35,550 nt of DNA, taken from positions 1 through 35,550 of the IMG/VR virus record IMGVR_UViG_3300049783_001966; one strand, given 5' to 3'. The DNA is from a virus. The notes beneath the pieces are model-generated. The model saw nothing but the letters and a program-made list of their open reading frames with translations, did no database searches and was not told the origin of the DNA. Shown here in pieces: positions 10,057 through 33,966 of this stretch (positions are counted from its first letter, which is position 1; each line of letters opens with the position of its first letter). The position numbers and the translations under genes were made by a program.

Positions 10057-11796
10057 ATGCCAGAACTCAACCCCACAAACGACAATGGAAATATCCTCTA
10101 TACAACGCAGCAAACAAAAGCGTTGGGCTTATACCTGTGCCAACGAACGGCCAGCGAAATAGCCCAAAAAATTAAAATCACCGATCGCACGGTGCAAAGT
10201 TGGATTGCTAAATTTGATTGGAAAACACTGCGCGATGATGCGCCCCCGGAGCAGGTAACCCGGCAACGTATTGCCTATTTAACCTGGGTCGATGAAAAAA
10301 CCGATAAGCAGTTACGCGAACTGGAAGTGTTGCTTAAATTTCACATGGGCGACCCGAAACGCAAGTTCAGTAGCGGCGATGCAAAAGACGGCTCTAACCG
10401 CGGCCGCCGCCCGAACAAAATTAAAAATGATATTTCAGGGATTACTCAAGACCTGCTTGATAATTTCCGGGATAAAACCTTTTTCAAATATCAAACCGAT
10501 ATACTCAATACCAAAGCCAATCCCGCCCTGAACTGGATGCGCTTTTATCTTAAATCGCGCCAGATTGGTTTAACCTATTTATTTGCTTATGAAGCTTTTG
10601 AAGATGCGATTTTAACCGGTGATAACCAAGTGTTTTTATCGGCCTCTAAAAGGCAATCGGAGATATTTAAAAACTACATTCGTATGTTTGCGCTGCAGAT
10701 AGGCGAAGTGGATTTAAAAGGCAAAGATGAAATTGAGCTCAGTAACGGCGCGATTTTTTACTTTTTATCCACCAACTCCCGCACGGCGCAGGGTTTTCAC
10801 GGCCATCTGTATATTGATGAAGTGTTTTGGATCCCTAAATTTAAAACCCTGGATGATTTAGCCGGCGGCATGTCGATGCACGATAAGTGGCGGACCACTT
10901 ATCTTTCCACCCCGTCATCGATTGCCCATGAAGCTTATCCAAAATGGGCCGGCAGTAAAAAAGACAAGATTGATATCAGTCACAAGGCACTTAAACACGG
11001 TGCATTAGGACCGGATGGTATCTACCGTCAGGTGATCACCGTGGATGATGCCATTGAGGGCGGCGCTAATTTCTTTAATATGGAAAAACTGCACCGTAAA
11101 TATCCCGATAAAGAGGTCTTTGATAACTTACTGCGCTGTGTCTTCCTGGATGATTCGCACTCGGTCTTTGATTTAAAACAGCTAATGGCCTGTAAGGTTG
11201 ATTCTATTGACTGGAAAGATGTGGATATGGAGGCGACGCGCCCGGTGGGCAATGCCCCGGTTTGGATTGGTTATGATCCCAGTGGCCAAGGTGATGAAGC
11301 GGCCGTGGTAGTAGCACTGCCGCCAAAACGTAAAGGCGGTGCATTCCGCTTGATTGAAAAATTACGCCTGCAGGGATTGTCCTATCAGCATCAAGCCGAC
11401 CAGCTGCAAGAGCTCACCGACAAATACAACGTGGTTGAAATCGCCATGGATATATCCGGAATTGGTGCCGTGGTGGCGGAGTTGGTCGAAGTGTTTTTCC
11501 CGCAGCTGACGCGCATTGTTTACAGCATTAATACCAAAACACACATGGTTTATAAGGCCCGGGAAGTGATTGGCGCGAACCGCCTACTCTTTGATGGCCT
11601 GTGGGATGACATTATCCACGCCTTTTTAATGATCAAACGCAGCACCACCAAAAACAGCGGGCAAGTGACCTTCACCGCCGCCCGGACTAAAGAAACCTCA
11701 CACGCAGACGTCGCCATGGCAACCATGCACCTGCTCAGTTTAGAAGGGGTCAATATTAAAGAAGACCTCGCACCCACTATTTCAATTGGAGATTAA
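10057..11796 (+). CDS. P: Terminase large subunit (ATPase) gpP
   Basis: This is the motor and nuclease for DNA packaging. The frame extends upstream to 9925, but I place the start at the ATG at 10057 (MPELNPTNDNG), giving 579 residues (P2: 590) and an N-terminal HTH with a 'TVQSWIAKFDW' end as in P2; no strong ribosome site was seen for either start. A Walker-A-like SRQIGLT (about 167-173), Walker B LYIDEVF (about 251-257) and a nuclease motif GYDPSGQGDEAAV with D407 are visible. It is transcribed with portal Q, away from the head operon. Confidence 0.93.
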   Translation: MPELNPTNDNGNILYTTQQTKALGLYLCQRTASEIAQKIKITDRTVQSWIAKFDWKTLRDDAPPEQVTRQRIAYLTWVDEKTDKQLRELEVLLKFHMGDPKRKFSSGDAKDGSNRGRRPNKIKNDISGITQDLLDNFRDKTFFKYQTDILNTKANPALNWMRFYLKSRQIGLTYLFAYEAFEDAILTGDNQVFLSASKRQSEIFKNYIRMFALQIGEVDLKGKDEIELSNGAIFYFLSTNSRTAQGFHGHLYIDEVFWIPKFKTLDDLAGGMSMHDKWRTTYLSTPSSIAHEAYPKWAGSKKDKIDISHKALKHGALGPDGIYRQVITVDDAIEGGANFFNMEKLHRKYPDKEVFDNLLRCVFLDDSHSVFDLKQLMACKVDSIDWKDVDMEATRPVGNAPVWIGYDPSGQGDEAAVVVALPPKRKGGAFRLIEKLRLQGLSYQHQADQLQELTDKYNVVEIAMDISGIGAVVAELVEVFFPQLTRIVYSINTKTHMVYKAREVIGANRLLFDGLWDDIIHAFLMIKRSTTKNSGQVTFTAARTKETSHADVAMATMHLLSLEGVNIKEDLAPTISIGD

Positions 11797-11799
11797 ACA

Positions 11800-12756
11800 A
11801 TGTTTGTAGAATTTGGCGAACCGGAATCCGTGTTAAACAGTGATATATCGGACTACGTAGAAACCTATCTGATTGATGGTTACTTTGAGCCGCCGGTCTC
11901 TTTTGAGGGATTGGCAAAAACCTTGCGCGCCAATGCGATGCATTCCTCGGCTATTTACGCCAAACGTAATATGGTCAGTGCGGCCGTTGAATTAACCGGC
12001 AAACTTTCCAAACGGGATTTTAACCGTTTTCTGTTTGATTTTGGGGTGTTCGGCAATGCCTACTTGCTCAAAGTAACCAATGGCCTGGGTGAAGTCAGTT
12101 TTAAACATCTGCCGGCCATGTATATCCGCCGGCGTGAAAAAGAAAATTGCTACTCCTACAAAACAGAAAATCAAACCATCGACTATAAAGAAAATACTGT
12201 CTTTCATCTAATGGAATATGACGTTACTCAGGAGGTTTACGGCATCCCGCAATATTTTGCGTCACTCTCGAGTGTTTGGCTAAATGAAGACGCCACCCTT
12301 TTTCGCCGTAAATATTATTTAAACGGCGCTCATTCGGGCTTTTTGCTGTACATGAACAACCCGAATCTGACCGATGCCCAGGAGCAAGAGATTAAAGTCA
12401 AACTCAACAGCGCCAAAGGCCTGGGGAATTTTAAAAATATGTTCGTCAACGGCAAAGGCAAAGACAAAGAAAAACCGGAACTGATCCCCGTTGGTCAGCT
12501 CGATGCTAAAGATGAATTCAGCAAGATGAAAAACGTCACCACCGGCGATATTCTTTCAGCCCACCGTATTCCCCTGGATTTAATGAGTATTGTGCGTGAA
12601 GGTTTTAGCCCGGTGGGTGATCTGAATAAAGTGGATAAAATGTTCCATAAAAACGAAATTAAACCGATCGGAGAAATCTTATTGGAGCTGAATGATTTTG
12701 CAGGCTTTGAAGTGCTTAAAATGAAGGAGTATGAGGTGCTGGAAACCGGAAACTAA
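11800..12756 (+). CDS. Q: Portal protein gpQ
   Basis: The portal forms the DNA entry vertex and docks the terminase. The 318 residues (P2: 344) show the PBSX-type portal pattern: FEPPVSFEGLAKTLRANAMH near the N-terminus, LFDFGVFGNAYL, YGIPQYFASLSSVWLNEDAT and a C-terminal IPLDLMSIVREGFSPVGDLN. It begins 4 bases after the terminase stop. In P2 the cos site lies beyond the 3' end of Q, which makes the following gap a candidate packaging region. Confidence 0.93.
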   Translation: MFVEFGEPESVLNSDISDYVETYLIDGYFEPPVSFEGLAKTLRANAMHSSAIYAKRNMVSAAVELTGKLSKRDFNRFLFDFGVFGNAYLLKVTNGLGEVSFKHLPAMYIRRREKENCYSYKTENQTIDYKENTVFHLMEYDVTQEVYGIPQYFASLSSVWLNEDATLFRRKYYLNGAHSGFLLYMNNPNLTDAQEQEIKVKLNSAKGLGNFKNMFVNGKGKDKEKPELIPVGQLDAKDEFSKMKNVTTGDILSAHRIPLDLMSIVREGFSPVGDLNKVDKMFHKNEIKPIGEILLELNDFAGFEVLKMKEYEVLETGN

Positions 12757-13046
12757 AGAAAATCAGAAAGTAAAAATCGGTAATTTGTGGGGGGTACAAT
12801 AATGAACAATAAAGATTGATTGGATTATTTCTAAGTAGCTCTCCAAATAATTTAGAAATTCTCAAATGTACGTGCTACTCGGATTTGGTCTATATCCTAT
12901 GGCTTTTATCTATTTTATAAAAAATGTAGTCAATATTACTGAAAAAAACTTTTATTATTAATAATAAAATTTGCTGATATATCTATTATTTATGGTTTAA
13001 AATAAAGGTTGCATTTCATTCATATCAGTCCTTTGTTTAAGCTATT

Positions 13047-13075
13047 TGTTAGTTATTACTAACAGGTCTTTTTTT
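13047..13075 (+). terminator. Terminator candidate for the P-Q operon
   Basis: A 7-bp stem TGTTAGT/ACTAACA with a TATT loop is followed four bases later by a run of seven T on the plus strand, about 290 bp after the portal stop. Orientation fits the end of the rightward terminase-portal transcript. Confidence 0.55.
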
Positions 13076-13541
13076 GGTAAAGTTATCCACTATTTTACCC
13101 ACAGGGGAGCTAAAACATTTGCTTGAAAAAAACTAAAAAAGCTTTATCTTGTACTTTGCAGGTGCGGCACACACTAGATATAGTGTTTTTAATGTGCTTA
13201 AACTCTACATTTTGATATAGAAGCAACTGTAATTAGAACATATAACTGAACAATTAACTGCTCAGTTATATAAATTGATGTGGTGTTGATTTTTGGGCAA
13301 ACAAAAATTAACGGTTTTACACGAGAAGGACTCAAGCCAATTATTAACGTGAACCATTTTTCTTAGACACATAATACACGTTAATAATTTCCAATCAATA
13401 TGCCAGAGAATCTTCTTAACAAAGATAAGGTATATAAAACAAATGAAGTTATCATTTTCTTTTGAAATTGAAGCGGTTGTAGTAATTAAAGTATTCACAC
13501 TTATTAGTATCGTTTGCTCATTAATTTAATTGTAGTAGCTT

Positions 13542-13581
13542 AAATGTTCAAGGGTTTAACTATAGATACCCTTGAACATTT
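13542..13581. repeat. Perfect 14-bp inverted repeat hairpin
   Basis: AAATGTTCAAGGGT (13542-13555) and its exact reverse complement ACCCTTGAACATTT (13568-13581) flank a 12-base loop. On the minus strand it is preceded by CATAACAA, similar to an attC R'' box, but no matching R' GTT follows the second arm. It may be an attC relic, an insertion-sequence relic or a terminator without a T-run. Confidence 0.6.
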
Positions 13582-13666
13582 GTTATGTTTATAAACTTTC
13601 TGTTTTTTAAATTGGTTACACAGAAGTAACATAAGCAAACTGATTAAAATCAATGGTAATTCTAAA

Positions 13667-13744
13667 TTAGGCAGTTTCTACTTTGCTAGGCTTGGTAGTG
13701 AAAACAGGAAAATTGTGTACGATTTCTTGAGCGTTAATTACCAT
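13667..13744 (-). CDS. Possible 25-residue cassette ORF or remnant
   Basis: The minus strand reads MVINAQEIVHNFPVFTTKPS and five more residues to a TAA. Its ATG overlaps GTTATGG, which resembles an attC R' box, so it could be the 5' part of a cassette gene or a truncated antitoxin-like gene. The ribosome site is weak. I do not recognise the product, and the frame is short enough to be chance. Confidence 0.3.
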   Translation of the reverse strand: MVINAQEIVHNFPVFTTKPSKVETA

Positions 13745-13769
13745 AACCCTTTTTTCGCGAATGCCATTC

Positions 13770-13950
13770 GGGTCAGGTCTTTCGTTTTGCACAGTTAAAG
13801 AATTGGAATGAGGCTATCATCAAATCTTATCAATCCGATGGTTACACAATGAAAGAGATTGGCGGTGATTTTAAAATACATTATTCATCAGTAAGTCATA
13901 TTGTAGCTGCTTGTAGAAAATAAAATAATGCAAAATGAAAGACTTGATCC
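13770..13950 (+). mobile_element. 180-bp element with transposase remnant, copy 1
   Basis: A unit bounded by imperfect inverted ends: GGGTCAGGTCTTTCG at the left and TGAAAGACTTGATCC at the right. Inside, the plus strand keeps the last 38 codons of a REP-associated (Y1/TnpA-REP) type transposase, EAIIKSYQSDGYTMKEIGGD then FKIHYSSVSHIVAACRK and a stop. It is a deletion derivative (MITE-like). A second copy is at 14869-15048. It has separated the attC remnant at 13951-13978 from whatever followed. Confidence 0.75.
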
Positions 13951-13978
13951 TGGGCCCTGAAATGCCTTGTTGTTAGCA
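13951..13978 (-). other. attC remnant after the 205-aa gene, cut by the mobile element
   Basis: On the minus strand, just after the stop of the 205-residue gene, comes TGCTAAC (R''-like), the spacer AACAA and then GGCATTTCAGGG, after which the mobile element begins. Only the R''-L'' half is seen. The intact attC sites in the window share this layout relative to their upstream gene. Confidence 0.5.
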
Positions 13979-13982
13979 AGCA

Positions 13983-14600
13983 TTAGCGACATCGATACTC
14001 TCGAAGGTCATTTTTTATGCTTAGTTTGAGATCTAGAATATCCTTTCTAACCCTAAGTAAGTTTTGAAACCGTTCTTCTCCTTCTAGACTCTTATAGGAA
14101 TTACCAACGCGATTTAGGATGCTGTTTATTTGCGTATCAAAATGAGGATAAGAATATTTAAAGGACTTTAACTCCACTTCAGTCAACAGAGACTGTACAA
14201 AGTCTACATTTACTTGATAATATTCTTTAGATTTCCAAAATGCATCTAAATATTTACTCTTCGCTTCAGTATGATTTTTATAGTAAAAATTTGTATTAAA
14301 AGTGAAATGTTCATCTTCAAAAACTCCCCAATAGCGTTCAACAGCACCTATGCATTCAAAAGCAATTTTTTCCAGTTCCTTGAAAGCCTTAAAACGCTCC
14401 GTATGATTAAATTGAACTTTCCAAGCGGTTAACGCTCGACTCGCAATAATTACTGCTAATAAAGTTCCAATACTCGAAATAACACCAAAAACTTTATACA
14501 ACGCATCTAATGTCATTGAATTGCTATCTATGTTTATACCCACAATCATACCAATGGCAAGCAAAGCAAAACAGCAAAACCATATAATTCTATCACTCAA
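13983..14600 (-). CDS. Two-helix membrane protein, cassette-borne, unknown function
   Basis: The 205 residues have two N-terminal membrane helices (about 5-24, IIWFCCFALLAIGMIVGINI; about 35-58, VFGVISSIGTLLAVIIASRA). A cytoplasmic helical and acidic domain follows, with EKIAFECIGAVERYWGVFED. The start is TTG at 14600, after a strong GAGGAG site 8 bases upstream. It begins 21 bases after the R' box of the attC at 14621-14729 and ends at an attC remnant, the layout of an integron cassette. I do not recognise the family; a membrane-anchored accessory or defence role is only a guess from location. Confidence 0.75.
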   Translation of the reverse strand: MSDRIIWFCCFALLAIGMIVGINIDSNSMTLDALYKVFGVISSIGTLLAVIIASRALTAWKVQFNHTERFKAFKELEKIAFECIGAVERYWGVFEDEHFTFNTNFYYKNHTEAKSKYLDAFWKSKEYYQVNVDFVQSLLTEVELKSFKYSYPHFDTQINSILNRVGNSYKSLEGEERFQNLLRVRKDILDLKLSIKNDLREYRCR

Positions 14601-14620
14601 GTGTAAAACTCCTCTTTGCT

Positions 14621-14729
14621 TGCTAACAGCGCAATAAACGGCGCCTAGGTTAGCGCTGTTTTTTCTTTTTTTTTATCTTTAGAAAAAACAGCGGCAGGTG
14701 TACTGCGTCCGATTTAATTGCCCTTATAC
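14621..14729 (-). other. attC recombination site B (integron cassette end)
   Basis: Read on the minus strand: a degenerate R'' (GTATAAGG) overlapping the stop of the upstream gene remnant; L'' GCAATTAAATCGGACGC; a 12-bp inverted repeat CGCTGTTTTTTC/GAAAAAACAGCG as the variable terminal structure; L' GCGCCGTTTATTGC, complementary to L'' with a few extrahelical bases; and R' GTTAGCA at 14627-14621. GGAC follows the L'' pairing, as in the other sites here. This is the R''-L''-loop-L'-R' layout known for attC. Confidence 0.7.
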
Positions 14730-14855
14730 CTGTTCTTCGGTGTATTTATCGTCTATTTCTTTTGCTATTTTTATAAACCTTTTATTGTGTTTTTCAATAA
14801 AATGTAAATATATGCGAGCATCAAAATCAATGAAATTAGATTCTTTATTATTAAA
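14724..14855 (-). pseudogene. 3' remnant of a cassette gene truncated by the mobile element
   Basis: A minus-strand frame without a start encodes 43 residues, FNNKESNFIDFDARIYLHFI then EKHNKRFIKIAKEIDDKYTE and EQV, stopping inside the R'' end of attC B. The 5' part is missing where the 180-bp element (copy 2) begins. I do not recognise the family. Position and composition fit the tail of a cassette ORF. Confidence 0.5.
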
Positions 14856-14868
14856 ATATTAACCATTC

Positions 14869-15048
14869 GGGTCAGGTCTTTCGTTTTGCACAGTTAAAGA
14901 CTCGGGATGAGGCTATCATCAAATCTTATCAACTGGTAGTTACACAATGAAAGAGATTGGCGGTGATTTTAAAATCCATTATTCATCAGTAAGTCGTATT
15001 GTAGCTGCTTGTAAAAAATAAAATAATGCAAAATGAAAGATTTGACCC
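14869..15048 (+). mobile_element. 180-bp element with transposase remnant, copy 2
   Basis: A second copy of the element at 13770-13950, in the same orientation and highly similar. Its ends, GGGTCAGGTCTTTCG and TGAAAGATTTGACCC, match each other better than in copy 1. A one-base deletion after SYQ shifts the transposase remnant out of frame (stop soon after). It inserted 13 bases beyond the R' box of attC C. Both copies are preceded by CCATTC, which may belong to the element. Confidence 0.75.
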
Positions 15049-15061
15049 TCAGCCCTTTTAA

Positions 15062-15160
15062 CCTCAACGCCACCTTAAGCGGCAAAAAATTTTTTGCTAA
15101 AATGTTGAACGAAGTGAAAACAGCAAACTGTTTTTTTGTCCGTTTAAAGGTCTTGTATGT
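15062..15160 (-). other. attC recombination site C after the DUF2971 gene
   Basis: On the minus strand: a degenerate R'' (ACATACAAG); L'' CCTTTAAACGG followed by AC (GGAC at 15138-15141); a long imperfect arm pair around CAGTTTGCTG...TTTTAGCAAAAAATT; L' CCGCTTAAGG, complementary to L'' with one mismatch and one extra base; a TGGC spacer; and R' GTTGAGG at 15068-15062. It starts right after the DUF2971 stop. Confidence 0.65.
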
Positions 15161-15162
15161 GC

Positions 15163-16029
15163 CTACCACTCCCGATACGGAATTTGGCAATTAGTTAATT
15201 TTGGCGATATTCCTTGATTGCTCATGAACATAGATAAGCCTGACATATTTAAATTTTGATGCTGTGATGGCCCTAAAATTATGTTGCTAAAAAATGGTCG
15301 TGAGCCTAATGGTAATTCAATGTACGGTATTAGCATTGATGCACCTTCTCGAAATTTTAATCTAGGGTCTTTAAATTTTGGAATGTTTGCAGAGATTAAA
15401 CGCCATTCGCATTCTTCTTGGAATGCACTATGTTTTAGGATTGCAAGAACCTGAAATATCTCACTAGTATACTGATTGATAAAACTGTAATAACACTGCG
15501 TGAGCGGTTTATTACTTATATCCATGGTTGGTAATTCTTTCCTAAAGTTCACTAGTAGTTTTTCTATTAAAATACCAATTACTTTTTCTTGTTCAACTGT
15601 TTCATATATACACCTAGCAATTTTCATTTCAAAAGTGCGTGCAATTTCATTAACTTTGCTAGGATTAAATTCAAGACTGACACCTTTACCATGAGGCGTA
15701 TAACTTCTCCACTGACTTAATAAACTCGGTTTTTCTGATAAAGAAAACACAAAGATTGTATGTGCAACTTTTGAACAAGATGTTGTCCATTCTAGTAGTT
15801 GGTTAAGAAACCGAAGTTCTTCATTTTTTTCACCAAAAACTAACCTAGCTCTTAATACGTTTTCTACTGTTTCGCAGGCATGTACAATTTCTTTTGAGTC
15901 ATTCATGTAAGAAATGCTACTCGCCCAAAGAGAATCCCCCGAAGCAATACCAAGAAGAGAGCCTATACCTGTGTAATGGTACAAAGGGATTGTAACCTCA
16001 GTCACAAAGATACTATCAATTGTTCTCAT
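15163..16029 (-). CDS. DUF2971 family protein, cassette-borne
   Basis: The 288 residues match the DUF2971 pattern: LYHYTGIGSLLGIASGDSLW and ASSISYMNDSKEI near residues 15-48, then IFVFSLSEKPSLLSQWRSYT with HGKGVSLEF. There is no signal peptide or membrane segment. The family is uncharacterised but common in accessory and mobile regions. The gene starts 25 bases after the R' box of attC D and ends at attC C, so it is the clearest complete cassette of the array. A role in defence or stress is speculative. Confidence 0.85.
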   Translation of the reverse strand: MRTIDSIFVTEVTIPLYHYTGIGSLLGIASGDSLWASSISYMNDSKEIVHACETVENVLRARLVFGEKNEELRFLNQLLEWTTSCSKVAHTIFVFSLSEKPSLLSQWRSYTPHGKGVSLEFNPSKVNEIARTFEMKIARCIYETVEQEKVIGILIEKLLVNFRKELPTMDISNKPLTQCYYSFINQYTSEIFQVLAILKHSAFQEECEWRLISANIPKFKDPRLKFREGASMLIPYIELPLGSRPFFSNIILGPSQHQNLNMSGLSMFMSNQGISPKLTNCQIPYREW

Positions 16030-16053
16030 TTATTGACTCATACTCCATTTGGC

Positions 16054-16160
16054 ACATAACGCCACAAACACTGGCGCGTAGATTGGTATTATTTTTGCGT
16101 TTTTTGTTTTGCAAAAATGATTACAGCCGTTATGCGTCCAAGTTTAACGACTTGTTAAAC
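16054..16160 (-). other. attC recombination site D after the 198-aa gene
   Basis: On the minus strand: R'' GTTTAAC (a perfect RYYYAAC), overlapping the stop codon of the upstream gene; spacer AAGTCGTT; L'' AAACTTGG followed by AC (GGAC); a terminal structure with ATTTTTGC/GCAAAAAT; L' CCAGTGTTT, complementary to L'' with unpaired bases; spacer GTGGC; and R' GTTATGT at 16060-16054. R'' overlapping the stop and the next gene starting shortly after R' are classic for cassettes. Confidence 0.75.
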
Positions 16161-16751
16161 TGTGGCGTACGCAATTAAAGCCTGAACGACAGGCATTCCA
16201 AGGGTAACCGTACTCGAAGCTATACCTAACCACTCAATTAATGAAGACTTTGCAATGCAACTAAGTTGTTTTTCAGTATTTTCGCTTTTCTTAATTTCTT
16301 TGAGCAAGTCTAATAAAAATTCTTGTGGTGTATCTTTTGGCAAACCTAGTTCTAATAACTTATGTTCGGGAAGATAAATGTCAAACGCAACGTCTACTTT
16401 TTTAAACTTTGTTTTTTTAGCTTTAATATCGAAAGTATTAGGTGCAACAACTGCCTTTTTAACTTCTTCAAATTCACATTCATCTAAGTCTAATGCCATA
16501 TCTTTATTCCCTATCCTTTTACTTGATTGAGTTACATTGATACCTTTATTACAATTATTAAGATCAACATTTTTTGCAATTACGGAACAATTTGTATCCA
16601 TATCGACAGCTTTTCCGAAACCACTAAGACGAACATTATTTAAAGAAAGCTGACTATTTCCAAGTTTGAACCCTGTAGGTGTGCTTTGTTTTTTTTCTGT
16701 AAAATGTTGAGCTAGCACCAACGGAGAAATACCTTGATTGTAATAGTCCAT
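16155..16751 (-). CDS. Unknown protein with repeat-like beta segment, cassette-borne
   Basis: I start this at the ATG at 16751 (MDYYNQGISP), giving 198 residues. The open frame continues upstream to 16856, but that part reads as low-quality sequence crossing a possible attC R' box (GTTATAC at 16764-16758). Residues about 25-110 have short repeating LxxxNVxLxGFGKAV / AKNVDLNNCNKGI segments reminiscent of a small right-handed beta-helix. The C-terminus ends in a hydrophobic stretch, WLGIASSTVTLGMPVVQALI. Its stop codon lies within the attC D R'' box. Family not recognised. Confidence 0.7.
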   Translation of the reverse strand: MDYYNQGISPLVLAQHFTEKKQSTPTGFKLGNSQLSLNNVRLSGFGKAVDMDTNCSVIAKNVDLNNCNKGINVTQSSKRIGNKDMALDLDECEFEEVKKAVVAPNTFDIKAKKTKFKKVDVAFDIYLPEHKLLELGLPKDTPQEFLLDLLKEIKKSENTEKQLSCIAKSSLIEWLGIASSTVTLGMPVVQALIAYATV

Positions 16752-17023
16752 AATATTGTATAACGATCCCGCTGGCGGGCGACATTTAACAAAGTACCAT
16801 ATACACATATAGCACTTTACCAAATAACATGTTTTAGTTAATTTTGTCATAATCACCTAGTAGCAGTTTAACAGTGTATTAATCTACATTCTCACCAATA
16901 CACATTTATAATTTAATTATTTTATAAAAACCATATCACAACAAACTTATAAAACAATCAGACAGATCCAATGTTTGATTGTAAATTGACCTTTCATTTT
17001 GAGATGTATTTATGGGGGTTGTG

Positions 17024-17051
17024 AAAAAGGGGCTATTCAGCCCCCTTTTTT
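17024..17051. terminator. Bidirectional terminator after the lysis operon
   Basis: AAAAAGGGGCT, an ATTC loop, then AGCCCCCTTTTTT form a strong stem with T-runs on both strands. It ends the leftward lysis transcript; the Rz1 stop lies in the stem. It insulates the lysis genes from the cassette block downstream. Confidence 0.85.
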
Positions 17052-25786: not shown

Positions 25787-25830
25787 TTTTAACCTGACAC
25801 TCTTATTCAGAGTGTCACGACTTGTTATGA
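25787..25830 (-). other. Short attC-like hairpin at the HNH stop codon
   Basis: On the minus strand TCATAAC (the HNH stop TAA is inside), AAGTCG, then a perfect 9-bp hairpin TGACACTCT/AGAGTGTCA with a 5-base loop, then G and GTTAAAA. TAAC and GTTA can pair, giving R''/R'-like ends around the hairpin, and TAACAAGTCGT is shared with attC D. At about 44 bases it is shorter than usual attC sites, so it may be a degenerate or mini attC, or a simple hairpin. Confidence 0.4.
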
Positions 25831-26763
25831 TTGTTTTAGAAAAACCTCATTTCTATGGAATTCCAAATATGATAGATGCTCTTCAACTAAATCTATTGAG
25901 ATATTTTGGGATACTCCTAAAATATTTTGAGTATCCTGATCAAGAGCATTGGCAATAATAATATTCCCTTTATTACAAAAAGAAATGAAGCCTTGATCAA
26001 ATAACAAATCGAAATTTGCCGTGAGTAATAAACCATTAAAATGGTCTAAACGCTCTTTGTTATTGCTAATTTTCCATGGCTTAATATGAGAAGCTCTTAA
26101 TAAAGAGGTATTTTTACAAGCTGTTATGGAACAAGATCCCCAGTACTCAATAAGTGATTCTCGATATTTCCCCTGTCCTTTTCTAGCTTTTATTAATACA
26201 GTTTTTTCCGTTTGTGATAGTGAATCATCATTATTTATAATGTTAATATCATCTTCTAGGTCATCATGATGAGTTTTTCCTGAAGTAAGAACATTAAAAT
26301 TATTCCATTGGATTTTCTCTCTGTGGCTCCCTGCATCTGATTTCCAATAAAATTCATGTGCGGAAATATTACCAACCCAATCCTTTTGGGGGTTAGATAG
26401 CCAAGTAGACCCTTCATGATCGATGTATTTCTTTATAGAATTGTAAATTTGGGCTGATGGAATGAAGCACCACTCATTACATAACTCTGCTCTTTTACCG
26501 TTATCCCCTCTGCCGTAAGCAGGAACGGCAAAAAAATCAACACGTAATGAATTGTATTTAATCTTTTCAATTGAAACGGTTCTAATATCGTTAATTGATT
26601 TTTTAGAACCATTGAATGTTATCTGGTTACCAAAATTAGAAAGGATGTATATATTTGAATCACCATAATTAATCAGACTTTTATGTATATTACTATCTAC
26701 AACCTCTATTCCTTTATATTGCAATATGGATAAAAGTTCTTTCTTACGTTCTTCTAATTTCAT
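25825..26763 (-). CDS. HNH endonuclease, restriction-type, no partner methylase
   Basis: The 312 residues end in an HNH_2-type domain: C211 and C216 in GSCSITACKN, H226 in RASHIKPW, N243 in DHFNGLLLTANFDLLFDQG. This form occurs in standalone restriction-like nucleases. The first 190 residues are a separate domain with 'RVDFFAVPAYGRGDNGKRAE' and NEWCFIPSAQI, perhaps DNA or modified-base recognition. The ATG has AAGGA upstream. No methyltransferase is adjacent, so self-protection would need another route, for example targeting modified or foreign DNA only. It starts 77 bases after an attC R' box. Confidence 0.85.
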   Translation of the reverse strand: MKLEERKKELLSILQYKGIEVVDSNIHKSLINYGDSNIYILSNFGNQITFNGSKKSINDIRTVSIEKIKYNSLRVDFFAVPAYGRGDNGKRAELCNEWCFIPSAQIYNSIKKYIDHEGSTWLSNPQKDWVGNISAHEFYWKSDAGSHREKIQWNNFNVLTSGKTHHDDLEDDINIINNDDSLSQTEKTVLIKARKGQGKYRESLIEYWGSCSITACKNTSLLRASHIKPWKISNNKERLDHFNGLLLTANFDLLFDQGFISFCNKGNIIIANALDQDTQNILGVSQNISIDLVEEHLSYLEFHRNEVFLKQS

Positions 26764-26839
26764 GTGTACGTTCCTTGTGTAATGAAATCGCTCGAATAAG
26801 TTAAATCACGCCCGATTATTGACTGATTGCAGAATAAAT

Positions 26840-26938
26840 TCATAACCCGTTTTCAGCGCTAAAAATAGTTGTCTAAAATGTGTGAGGTACAAACAACAGC
26901 CAACTTTTTTTTGTCCAACTTGAAAACTATTGTTAGAT
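26840..26938 (-). other. attC recombination site between membrane and HNH genes
   Basis: On the minus strand, directly after the stop of the membrane gene: R'' ATCTAAC (a perfect RYYYAAC, 26938-26932), spacer AATAG, L'' TTTTCAAG, TTGGAC (GGAC at 26916-26913). A loop region with GTTGGCTGTTG and TAGACAACT arms follows, then L' GCTGAAAA, complementary to L'', spacer CGG and R' GTTATGA (26846-26840). At 99 bp it has all parts of an attC site in the correct order. It is the cleanest example in the window. Confidence 0.8.
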
Positions 26939-27277
26939 TTACGACCAAATAAGATCGCCATAACCCCATATAATTGTGCCAGTAACCAATAAAATATGGG
27001 CAGCTAATGACACTTTAAGTTTTGATTTAGTTGGCCTTGCTTTATATGGAACTGACATTTTGACTTTTGTTTGCATAAATTGAGCTCGTTGAATGTCATC
27101 GTATATGTGAGACGAAATTTTAAACTCAACAAATGCAGCTAAAAGAACAACTACAGAACCAGAACGAGCAAACCAATTATAATCAGTTGAGTAGTAATCT
27201 GCGACTACAGAAACAACTGCAACCAATATTGAAACACCAATAAGACTCCACTCAACCGTATATTTTCGATGCTTCAT
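26939..27277 (-). CDS. Small membrane protein, cassette-borne, unknown function
   Basis: The ATG at 27277 (MKHRKYTVEW) gives 112 residues; the frame is open to a TTG at 27364. Three hydrophobic segments are seen: LIGVSILVAVVSVVADYY, SGSVVVLLAAFVEFKI and SLAAHILLVTGTIIWGYGDL. A basic linker between the second and third ends in RPTKSK. Similar small proteins with a WFARSGS motif occur in accessory regions, without known function. Its stop abuts an attC site, as for a cassette gene. Confidence 0.7.
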   Translation of the reverse strand: MKHRKYTVEWSLIGVSILVAVVSVVADYYSTDYNWFARSGSVVVLLAAFVEFKISSHIYDDIQRAQFMQTKVKMSVPYKARPTKSKLKVSLAAHILLVTGTIIWGYGDLIWS

Positions 27278-27403
27278 AAAAAGTAAACCTAAAATTTTAT
27301 TAGATGGAAAACTTCCATATTTCCACAGGAAAGGCGCCCATCTATTATTTATGATAAAAAACAAAAGTTACACGCTTTAATACGGTTTATCAAATGGTTA
27401 TGT

Positions 27404-30070
27404 CTATTCATCGTCCCCGTTCACCCACTTCTGTATTGCTTGCTTGTACTCATCAGTTAATGGCACCAACTCTTTTACAAAATCAGCAAATGACTTAACA
27501 CCCTCAATTCCTTCATCTGGATTAAAGCTTCTACGTGTATCCATATAGCCAGCAAATGATTTAGCAATAACGCCCCCTTTTTTGAGCAGGGAATAAACAT
27601 AATCATAAGGAACACTTTTCCTTTCTGGTGCCTGATACTCGCCATTTTCAGCCACATTGTCTTCAAACTCTTCCCAAGTCAGCGGGAACTGCTCTTGGTA
27701 CCAGGCATTGTTGTGCTCTTTCCTTTTGCGCTTTTCGTCTTCACTTATCGGTGTTGTATCAAAAAATGCATTCCTCTTACCGGTTGGATCATGCTTAAAA
27801 CGGTTGGGTAGCGGATCAACATACTTCACATTGCGTTTAATCTTCTCTTCCCAAACCCTAAGCCGGAAATTACCACCGATATTCATCACGTTTTGTTTCA
27901 ATCTTCCCCAGGTAACCCGTTTAACATCACCGACCCAGCGCTCTTCAATGATCACATCGGTGAAGGACAACAACTCAGTAAGAATACGATCAGTAACCTT
28001 TTCACCCCGTTCTCTTAGTAAATTACTAACCTCTTGTTTTTCATCCTCATTTATTGAAACCGTACAGTTAGTGACAGAACTCCAAGGGCGCTGCGCGCCT
28101 GTTTTACCACCAACCTCCTCCGCTAAGTTGGACGTAATAACCCACCCGTCAGAGTGCGTGATCATGGTTTTAAGGTCATTAGTAATACCTTTAACCTTCT
28201 TGGCCACTTCTCCGTACTTACTGCTTGAGTCTTTGTAGGTCATCTTGATGGGGTGATTTTTGCGTGGGCAGAAAATGCCGCCCATCGCGTGAATATACAT
28301 GCTCCAATTGCCTGAATTGGCACTGATACGCGCCACTTCAATTGAGTCATGCTGTTTTTGCAGATCATAAAAAGACTGTATTTTCTTCGATGAAACGTAC
28401 TTCTCACCTTTTTCCTGCGCCTCTTTACGCGCTTTCATTTCAGCGACTTCACTTTCAGTTTGATCAAGTCGTCTAAGCTCTCGCCAAACCGAAACCGGTG
28501 CGCCACCGATTTGCTGAAACTGCCGAATACACCAGGTGCTCGCCCAACCACATACGGCCAGAGCAGTTTCATCTGCAGGTGTACCTGTGTCTTCGTCGTC
28601 CGGCATTTTGTAGCCATCAATATTTTTGGAGATATATTTAGCGATATAGCCCGTTGCACTGCCCTTTTTAGGATCGATTCGCTTGTAATCAAAACGGCGT
28701 TTAATACGCTTACTCACACTAAATATGTGCTTTCTCTCTGGTATTTTCTCAGGAACAAACATATCTTTTGTGCTGAAACCCGCTTTAATTGACTTACCCC
28801 ATGCCTTAAAATCCTGACGTCCCACATGTAACTCGTCTCTATTTTCTTGCGTAAAATAATCAGCAAAAACAAAACGTATTGCTTGCTCATCTTCGGGTTT
28901 AAAAAAGAAAAGCGCATGCCAGTGTGGTGTGCCGTCATGGTGTGGCTCACAAACACGAAAACCAAAGATCTGAATATCCATGCGTTTAAGTTTTGCACGA
29001 GCGCGCGCCCAGACTTTAGAAAGGTATTTTTGTGTCTGCATCGGGTTTACGCCGCAATACTTATTATTGTCGTACGCCCACTTTTGATCTTTTGATGAGT
29101 TGTAAGCATGGAATCGACTCGGCGCGGTAAAGGTGAAAAACCCCCCCATTAAACCGAATTCTTGGGCCAATAACTCAAAACCACTACAGCGCACCATTAG
29201 CTCACAACGACGAATAGCAGGGTTAGCGGTTGAGTTTTTAACCACATCAAGCATCGGTAACTCTTCCCCGGTATCCGTGTTTAACGCTACCAATTTAGCC
29301 AGCGCTAGCACCCCGGCATCTTTACGCGCCTTATAATTTGCACGGCCCGCCATACTCAAATACTGCGAAGCCCCTTTGTGAACACGACCAGCAATTATCT
29401 GGCAATGTTCACAAAATTGCCTATAAGCAACCTCTATTTTCCTTTTCCACCAGGACTCATCAAGCAAACGTTCCAGGTGAAACCACGCCTCATCCTCTTT
29501 AATACGAAACAGATAATCGGCTGTACTCTCATCCTCAAAGAGTTCATTGACCTGTGTAGGGGGTAAAGGCTTAAAGCCCCATTGGTCCGCCAATAACTGC
29601 ACCTGCTGTACAATATCAACCACGGTTAACCCATCGTTGGCACACTCGCGCCCAATCTCAGCACACTTTAAACTCCACACTTGCGCTTCCATGGTGCGCA
29701 CGCCATCACTTTTTAATCGAGCCGTTGAAACAGGGAATAACTTGGCTGATTTTTGGACCATTTTAATACGCTTGCGTAACCAGCGATTAGGGTTTTTATT
29801 CTCCCACTTTATCTTCTCTTTTGAGCTCTCTATCACCATCGGTTTAGCGAGGTAGTATTGCTGCCACCTGCGCACAAAAACAGAAAACAAGGCAATTGCC
29901 ACGTCCTCCACTAAGTTTTCATGCAGCGTAGTGATTGCAAAATGCTGATCAACTTCCCACTGATACGCGCAATTAACCGTCGCCAATGCCTTTTCAGGCA
30001 TGGCGTCAAAATCGGGGTATTTAATAAGAAGTTGATTTTGAAACTTGGACAGTTTTTGGCGGCTGGTCAC
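27404..30070 (-). CDS. A: Rolling-circle replication initiator gpA (P2 type)
   Basis: Nicks the phage origin and stays covalently bound during rolling-circle replication. The 888 residues contain the HUH motif at 377-385 in EPHHDGTPHWHALFFF and the two catalytic tyrosines Y475 and Y479 in TGYIAKYISKN, as P2 gpA (Y450/Y454). The domain starts near residue 270 with a GGFFTFTAPSRFHAYN segment. A GTG start at 30070 follows a GGA about 10 bases upstream. It is the last gene of the early leftward operon. In P2 the origin lies inside A; I could not identify it here. Confidence 0.93.
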   Translation of the reverse strand: MTSRQKLSKFQNQLLIKYPDFDAMPEKALATVNCAYQWEVDQHFAITTLHENLVEDVAIALFSVFVRRWQQYYLAKPMVIESSKEKIKWENKNPNRWLRKRIKMVQKSAKLFPVSTARLKSDGVRTMEAQVWSLKCAEIGRECANDGLTVVDIVQQVQLLADQWGFKPLPPTQVNELFEDESTADYLFRIKEDEAWFHLERLLDESWWKRKIEVAYRQFCEHCQIIAGRVHKGASQYLSMAGRANYKARKDAGVLALAKLVALNTDTGEELPMLDVVKNSTANPAIRRCELMVRCSGFELLAQEFGLMGGFFTFTAPSRFHAYNSSKDQKWAYDNNKYCGVNPMQTQKYLSKVWARARAKLKRMDIQIFGFRVCEPHHDGTPHWHALFFFKPEDEQAIRFVFADYFTQENRDELHVGRQDFKAWGKSIKAGFSTKDMFVPEKIPERKHIFSVSKRIKRRFDYKRIDPKKGSATGYIAKYISKNIDGYKMPDDEDTGTPADETALAVCGWASTWCIRQFQQIGGAPVSVWRELRRLDQTESEVAEMKARKEAQEKGEKYVSSKKIQSFYDLQKQHDSIEVARISANSGNWSMYIHAMGGIFCPRKNHPIKMTYKDSSSKYGEVAKKVKGITNDLKTMITHSDGWVITSNLAEEVGGKTGAQRPWSSVTNCTVSINEDEKQEVSNLLRERGEKVTDRILTELLSFTDVIIEERWVGDVKRVTWGRLKQNVMNIGGNFRLRVWEEKIKRNVKYVDPLPNRFKHDPTGKRNAFFDTTPISEDEKRKRKEHNNAWYQEQFPLTWEEFEDNVAENGEYQAPERKSVPYDYVYSLLKKGGVIAKSFAGYMDTRRSFNPDEGIEGVKSFADFVKELVPLTDEYKQAIQKWVNGDDE

Positions 30071-33206: not shown

Positions 33207-33237
33207 GCGCAGACCAATAACGTTAACCAACAGACAT

Positions 33238-33342: not shown

Positions 33343-33966
33343 CTAGTTGATTACACAATCTTTAGCTAAAACATTCATCATAAGTCCCTCAACCCTGCAA
33401 ATAACAGTCAGTTTTCTGCCCTTTTGTAGTTGGCCAAGTTGGTTGTTCATTGAATCATCAAAGAATGCTTGTATTTGAGGAATTTGGAATTGAGCACCGG
33501 ATCCTAAAGTGACATAAAGGTTATCCATAAAATCTTTTTTAACGCTATTTATGGTTCCTGTAACCTGAATTACATTACCCTTATACTTATTATCAGCACC
33601 AACCTCATTACCTTCATATGCAGACAAAATATCTCTGATATTTACTTGCATGACCTTCTCTGCTGGCGCTGAAATAGGAGCCGAAGCGCTTGAACGACTT
33701 CCTGACAGATCACCTTCTTGCGAGCCAAGGATTGCAAGTGAAAGAGCCAACCATACAAAAGAAATTATTTTAGCTTTTTTCGCATAGCCTTTCCGAAGAG
33801 TGAACCATGCAAAAATTATTGGTATCAATAATATACCAATACCTAAAAGAACACCTACTGACCTTTTATTGGGAGTTACATTTACATTTGGTTTTCCACA
33901 GCTTGGGCAAGCTGTGGCAGAATCTGACATCTCGCTCGAACAGTCAGGACAAGTAATCATTGGCAT
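33343..33966 (-). CDS. Zinc-ribbon membrane protein with OB-like domain (moron)
   Basis: 207 residues. An N-terminal zinc ribbon (CPDCSSEMSDSATACPSCGK, C-x2-C...C-x2-C) is followed by two membrane helices (about 37-55 and 65-80). A C-terminal tRNA_anti-like OB-fold domain follows, in which 'GNVIQVTGTINSVKKDFMDN' and VTLGSGAQFQIPQ are visible. Such proteins are common in bacterial and prophage accessory loci; function unknown. It is flanked by two copies of the same terminator unit, and a palindrome lies upstream. This is the layout of a moron. Confidence 0.8.
   Translation of the reverse strand: MPMITCPDCSSEMSDSATACPSCGKPNVNVTPNKRSVGVLLGIGILLIPIIFAWFTLRKGYAKKAKIISFVWLALSLAILGSQEGDLSGSRSSASAPISAPAEKVMQVNIRDILSAYEGNEVGADNKYKGNVIQVTGTINSVKKDFMDNLYVTLGSGAQFQIPQIQAFFDDSMNNQLGQLQKGRKLTVICRVEGLMMNVLAKDCVIN

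Follow-up and report, generated by a model that had tools for sequence, protein, structure and literature searches.

The marine, P2-like temperate phage represented by the IMG/VR virus record IMGVR_UViG_3300049783_001966 (35,550 nt, analyzed over its whole length and called the window below) almost certainly carries real integron cassette arrays. There are two of them, one in a 4.1-kb block with the portal gene on one side and the lysis genes on the other (locus I), and one in the ogr-rep interval (locus II). The integron integrase model TIGR02249 had no match across the whole record, in agreement with a first-pass annotation that had described a cassette cluster lacking this enzyme, and apart from the phage integrase at position 289 no tyrosine recombinase was seen. 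With no intI gene, the window does not qualify as a complete integron (intI, attI, and cassettes). We consider it probable that both arrays came from host chromosomal integrons and that their cassettes have been exchanged by a host integrase acting in trans.

Phage, probable host, and scoring of attC sites

The record is linear and possibly a fragment. It encodes a P2-like gene set (integrase, tape measure, sheath, P2-type capsid, terminase, portal, lysis, and baseplate), as well as Ogr, a replication protein, a CII-like protein, and an S24-type repressor. A further protein, encoded at 33343–33966, is related to a PHROG annotated as superinfection exclusion Sie-like. The nearest cellular relative found was a prophage of Psychromonas hadalis, with a portal protein 89% identical to that of the window; IntI is encoded by 22 of the 24 Psychromonadaceae genomes, P. 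hadalis among them. Taken together, the similarities of prophage, attI, attC, and repeat sequences point to Psychromonas-like bacteria as probable hosts. P2-like phages have variable accessory loci at which defense-like and unknown genes are swapped at fixed places between structural modules. Unlike at those loci, the units in the window are integron cassettes, delimited by attC sites.

Candidate attC sites were scored using a covariance model (R1) based on 17 sites adjacent to integron integrase genes, which came from Psychromonadaceae genomes and one Pseudoalteromonas plasmid and in no case from phages; the window was scanned with filters off. This model replaced a strict box-pairing scan, which was dropped as too crude. 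Site C scored highest (72.4 bits, E 9e-20), followed by E (45.5 bits, E 1.8e-11), D (29.7 bits, E 1.5e-6), and B (15.6 bits, E 0.034). R2, a wider model made from 68 matches, three of which are the reverse strand of palindromic sites, ranked the sites in the same order (68 bits for C, 45.8 for E, and 29.0 for D) and, as a positive control, recovered the CALIN already published for Shewanella phage M16-3, with 28–53 bits. Noise under R1 reached 20.3 bits for an unrelated hairpin at 33212 of the window and 18 bits at 16936, and at most 16.5 bits in the other phage loci of the set. The first-pass annotation had proposed that an attC model would match at least two of the three places occupied by B, C, and D, and matches were obtained at C (72 bits) and D (30 bits). 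Separated by 892 bases and both on the minus strand, these also make up the two or more clustered attC sites by which a CALIN is recognized.

Single-strand folding gave more support to B and D than to C and E, so sequence boxes make up much of the score of the latter two. There was no match in Rfam at gathering thresholds, and none in plasmids when an aadA-type attC was used as a megablast query. attC-like DNA matches were found in Pseudoalteromonas, Photobacterium, and Pseudomonas plasmids, mostly at intergenic positions. If the elements were transcription terminators or other hairpins, the terminator-like score of site B, which falls within the noise of the attC model, would be readily explained. 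Sites C, D, and E, however, match a model of integrase-linked attC at 30–72 bits on the cassette strand, and they have GGAC and GGCGTT boxes, which terminators need not have. The model scores rule out terminators for these three sites, B excepted, and for the elements as a whole we give that reading almost no credence.

The two cassette arrays

Comparisons at the level of sequence support locus I as a CALIN within a P2-like phage, with at least three cassettes behind a leader and with harm done by two repeats. The annotation's proposal of a cassette array in the phage is upheld, with the corrections that a second, attI-headed array at 25812–27411 had been missed and that the two repeats damage the first. 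As it had also claimed, the genes at 13983–14600, 15163–16029, and 16155–16751 are open frames that point the same way, all on the minus strand; the same strand carries every other feature described below for the two arrays, apart from the repeats, which are given without strand.

Going from the lysis side toward the portal, the array begins with a leader (16866–17030; TTAATACACTGTTAAAC) that is common to the phage on contig L001 and has an attI-like R box, GTTAAAC, at its 3' end. The resemblance of this leader to attI is suggestive and, by itself, not significant: the attI motif scored 10.7 bits (14.8 bits in L001), within a range in which shuffled sequences reached up to 15.9. An attI HMM had no match to the leader, and its matches to host attI sequences are short and weak. 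Gene D (16155–16850), the first cassette, is an open reading frame that probably starts at an ATG near 16850, ~16 nt past the R box, or else at the ATG at 16751. It had no relatives in the viral scan, and attC adjoins two of its three homologues among 395 genomes. attC D (16054–16160) is 79% identical over 101 bases to an intergenic site of a Pseudomonas plasmid. Its R'' box (GTTTAAC) includes the TAA stop of the gene at 16155, an overlap that had been read correctly from the start, as had the short distances to the next genes, which begin 25 bases past R' of D and 21 bases past R' of B.

Gene C (15163–16029) encodes a DUF2971 protein (PF11185, Pfam E 8e-12) with a weak match to the PADLOC candidate PDC-S31. 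Its homologues have attC within ~165 bases at five of 14 places in ~350–395 genomes of the host order, and the genome-contig scan found no relatives. Many plasmid matches are listed, at ~30% identity or below, so the family is not confined to cassettes. Occurrence of the same frames in other phages, with unrelated flanks, had been named as evidence against an array; for the DUF2971 gene there were only two distant phage matches. attC C (15062–15162) has DNA matches in Pseudoalteromonas and Photobacterium plasmids.

Beyond attC C lies one copy of an interspersed repeat (copy 2, 14863–15056), related to the C-terminal stub of a REP-type transposase. It cuts off a truncated cassette gene remnant (14724–14855), a 43-residue open frame that runs up to site B and has no significant Pfam match. 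Site B (14621–14729) is a probable, degenerate attC: its score lies within noise and its DNA had no match in plasmids, and a single-strand fold (z −4.0) and a position between cassettes speak in its favor. The last cassette gene, A (13983–14600), encodes a small membrane-type protein whose sole homologue in the 395 genomes (27% identical) belongs to an array with four attC sites, two of which flank it at distances of 11 and 21 bases. Each of A, C, and D thus has homologues that adjoin attC in other genomes, in some cases with the attC 9–11 bases past the gene.

Only the R'' half of attC A is present (13959–13978; TGCTAACAACAAGGCATTTC), namely R'' and ~13 bases, after which the site is cut by repeat copy 1 (13764–13958). 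The order R''-L''-L'-R' had been described for all four sites, A to D; it is found where described, except that B is weak by score and A is this half site. GGAC does follow L'' in B, C, and D, and the R'' boxes of B and C are degenerate. The two repeat copies are 94–96% identical to each other and have imperfect inverted ends. Further copies, up to 88% identical, are dispersed in Psychromonadaceae genomes (23 matches in G013 and 13 in G005), which supports this family as that of the host. The remaining portal side of the block (12757–13760, ~1 kb) has no cassette, no ORF of 80 or more codons, and no similarity to L001.

Locus II (25812–27411) is best explained as a captured integron fragment, made up of an attI, cassette E, attC E, and an HNH-endonuclease cassette with half an attC. 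The attI site (27288–27411) matches that of a Psychromonadaceae integron (genome G003) with 80% identity over 114 bp (blastn 1e-24), and the matching segment, 27288–27401, stops at the crossover box of that attI. Locus II was also the strongest match (E 4.7e-12) of an HMM made from 12 host attI regions. At ~27288–27293 the crossover box reads TTTAGG in place of GTTAGG, and the intact G|TTRRRY core is not present. Gene E (26939–27277), with its ATG ~11 nt past the attI R box, encodes a small apparent membrane protein of 112 aa; a homologue on viral contig L106 (41% identical) is immediately followed by one of the seven attC sites of an array. It is followed by attC E (26840–26938) and by gene F (25825–26763), which encodes a type II restriction-like HNH endonuclease (PF13391, E 4e-9; PADLOC HNH, 7e-23, and REase_II, 8e-14). 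The R'' half of attC F (25812–25829; CATAACAAGTCG) overlaps the stop of gene F, and a hairpin comes next. At the locus II position of the L001 phage, beside ogr, there is a DNA methyltransferase-like gene (L188, 1–1113), and no attC site was found in that interval.

IMG/VR contigs can include host DNA, and many of the attC matches on viral contigs may be of this kind, so the arrays could in principle be bacterial integron sequence wrongly joined to a phage. Collinear P2-like genes, however, flank both arrays on each side, and the independent contig L001 has both flanks of locus I with cassettes of its own. A chimera or host contamination is, given these flanks, very improbable.

Probable cassette turnover at locus I

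Apart from the window, L001 was the only one of the phage relatives fetched via the portal protein to have attC sites. Its portal is 98% identical to that of the window and both locus I flanks are shared, and its locus I position is occupied by three other genes, which encode a protein of 289 residues (weak PADLOC match to 2TM_IV), an Mrr-STAND NTPase of 903 residues, and a protein of 235 residues. Two attC sites (14666–14765 and 11082–11181) scored 52–55 bits, and there is a short attC-like site at 11916–11960. Homology between the window and L001 is unbroken through the leader. Its end falls precisely at AATACACTGTTAAAC, on the final C of GTTAAAC, beyond which similarity breaks down; the first cassette gene follows that box by ~16 nt in the window and by 25 nt in L001. 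At the other end, leaving aside a small mobile element in the R' box, the L001 array passes from its last attC into the portal stop at G|TTATTG. The two ends of the L001 array look as would be expected if an array had been inserted at a single G|TT site of the phage. In the P. hadalis prophage locus I is empty, with neither leader nor cassettes. The case for cassette turnover comes from this one pair, L001 being the only phage found that is nearly identical to the window and differs in its array.

Several features of the window would also suit a different history, in which illegitimate or homologous recombination brought pieces of a host chromosomal integron into the phage, where they now decay without IntI activity, and differences between blocks reflect ordinary phage mosaicism. 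Features that speak for it are the half attC sites A and F, the degenerate R'' boxes, the degenerate attI box of locus II, the two repeat insertions, and the gene-free segment at 12757–13760; off-target or illegitimate recombination has moreover been proposed as the source of phage CALINs (Qi et al., 2023; PMC9892861). On the other hand, the switch between the window and L001 falls exactly at the GTTAAAC box, with the first gene 16–25 nt on in both, and GTTRRRY is found about once every 800 bases on each strand of the window. The other end of the L001 array likewise joins the portal at G|TT. On balance we regard capture and decay by themselves as unlikely.

It is this comparison with L001 that supports exchange by a host integrase, the explanation we prefer. 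Both arrays would derive from chromosomal integrons of the probable Psychromonas-like hosts. During the prophage state, or while phage DNA is single-stranded, the host integron integrase would bind the folded attC strand in trans and recombine it at G|TTRRRY, and cassettes, many of them defense-like, could be gained, lost, or replaced at a docking site in the phage. IntI, and not homologous or illegitimate recombination, is the likely agent of exchange, judging from where the sequences switch. The attC and attI sites may still be active, and the cassette genes may benefit the phage or the lysogen.

Known systems and other phages

CALINs and integrons are established in phages, with Pseudoalteromonas phage PH101 and Tetrasphaera phage TJE1 as CALIN examples, and IntI1 recombined several phage attC sites with attI1 (Qi et al., 2023; PMC9892861). 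Integrase-less phage arrays, including that of the P2-like phage M16-3, are already published (Qi et al., 2023). Like the phage CALINs of that study, the cassettes of the window are unidirectional, separated by attC sites, and without an integrase. Unlike those, which come from single phages, the window has two arrays in one temperate P2-like phage, and it has a sister phage with other cassettes at the locus I site. A further parallel is Shewanella phage vB_SspM_M16-3 (Peduoviridae), which is also P2-like and has a host-type attI at the head of its CALIN. M16-3, a phage considered cryptic, differs in that it also has a complete integron with IntI, whereas the window has no IntI and its attI is of Psychromonas type. 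The CALIN of M16-3 lies between the baseplate V and tail-completion genes, in contrast to the portal-lysis and ogr-rep positions of the window arrays. Sedentary chromosomal integrons of Psychromonadaceae share the attC and attI sequence type and the cassette layout, but the window arrays are phage-borne, lack an integrase, and have few cassettes each.

Earlier phage cassettes were single cases, mostly without evidence of natural array change. The present case adds two near-identical phages that in nature differ in their cassettes, with the switch falling at the integrase box, and a relative with the locus empty. It also adds a phage with two arrays, a host-type attI that no integrase accompanies, and attI-headed arrays that recur among P2-like phages at different sites. 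The last was seen in two further P2-like phages with Shewanella-type attI and cassettes, directly after the portal in L159 and in the tail-completion/baseplate gene interval, the place used by M16-3, in L142. A tentative generalization, which we think possible and no stronger than that, is that integrase-less platforms are maintained by P2-like phages whose hosts are integron-rich marine bacteria, as docking sites at which host integrases exchange defense-like cassettes. The standing platform would then be an attI or attI-like leader with a few cassettes, swapped between infections or lysogenies. This suggests a testable route by which the cassettes of marine bacteria, a large pool with many defense genes in it, could enter phages and pass between hosts.

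A pattern scan found an attC-like motif in at least 119 viral stretches; when these were scored with the model, many but not all contained attC, and for most of them host flanks are still possible. Seven viral contigs (L106, L075, L088, L091, L140, L151, and L170) have two to seven strong attC sites each, and these could be prophages beside host integrons. One of them, L091, encodes an integrase 73% identical to the phage integrase of the window.

In several separate arrays, the GGCGTT of an attC R' box is immediately followed by a mobile element with terminal GAGGCTGTAGAATT (L001, 10958–11085; L057, 1989 and 3822; L044, 3438; L047, 3525; L049, 3105; L075, 1991). It seemingly encodes an IS1182-like transposase in Psychromonas, and the form in L001 is short, ~130 bp. 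The element may have attC R' boxes as its target, and in L057 a copy of GTT flanks it on each side.
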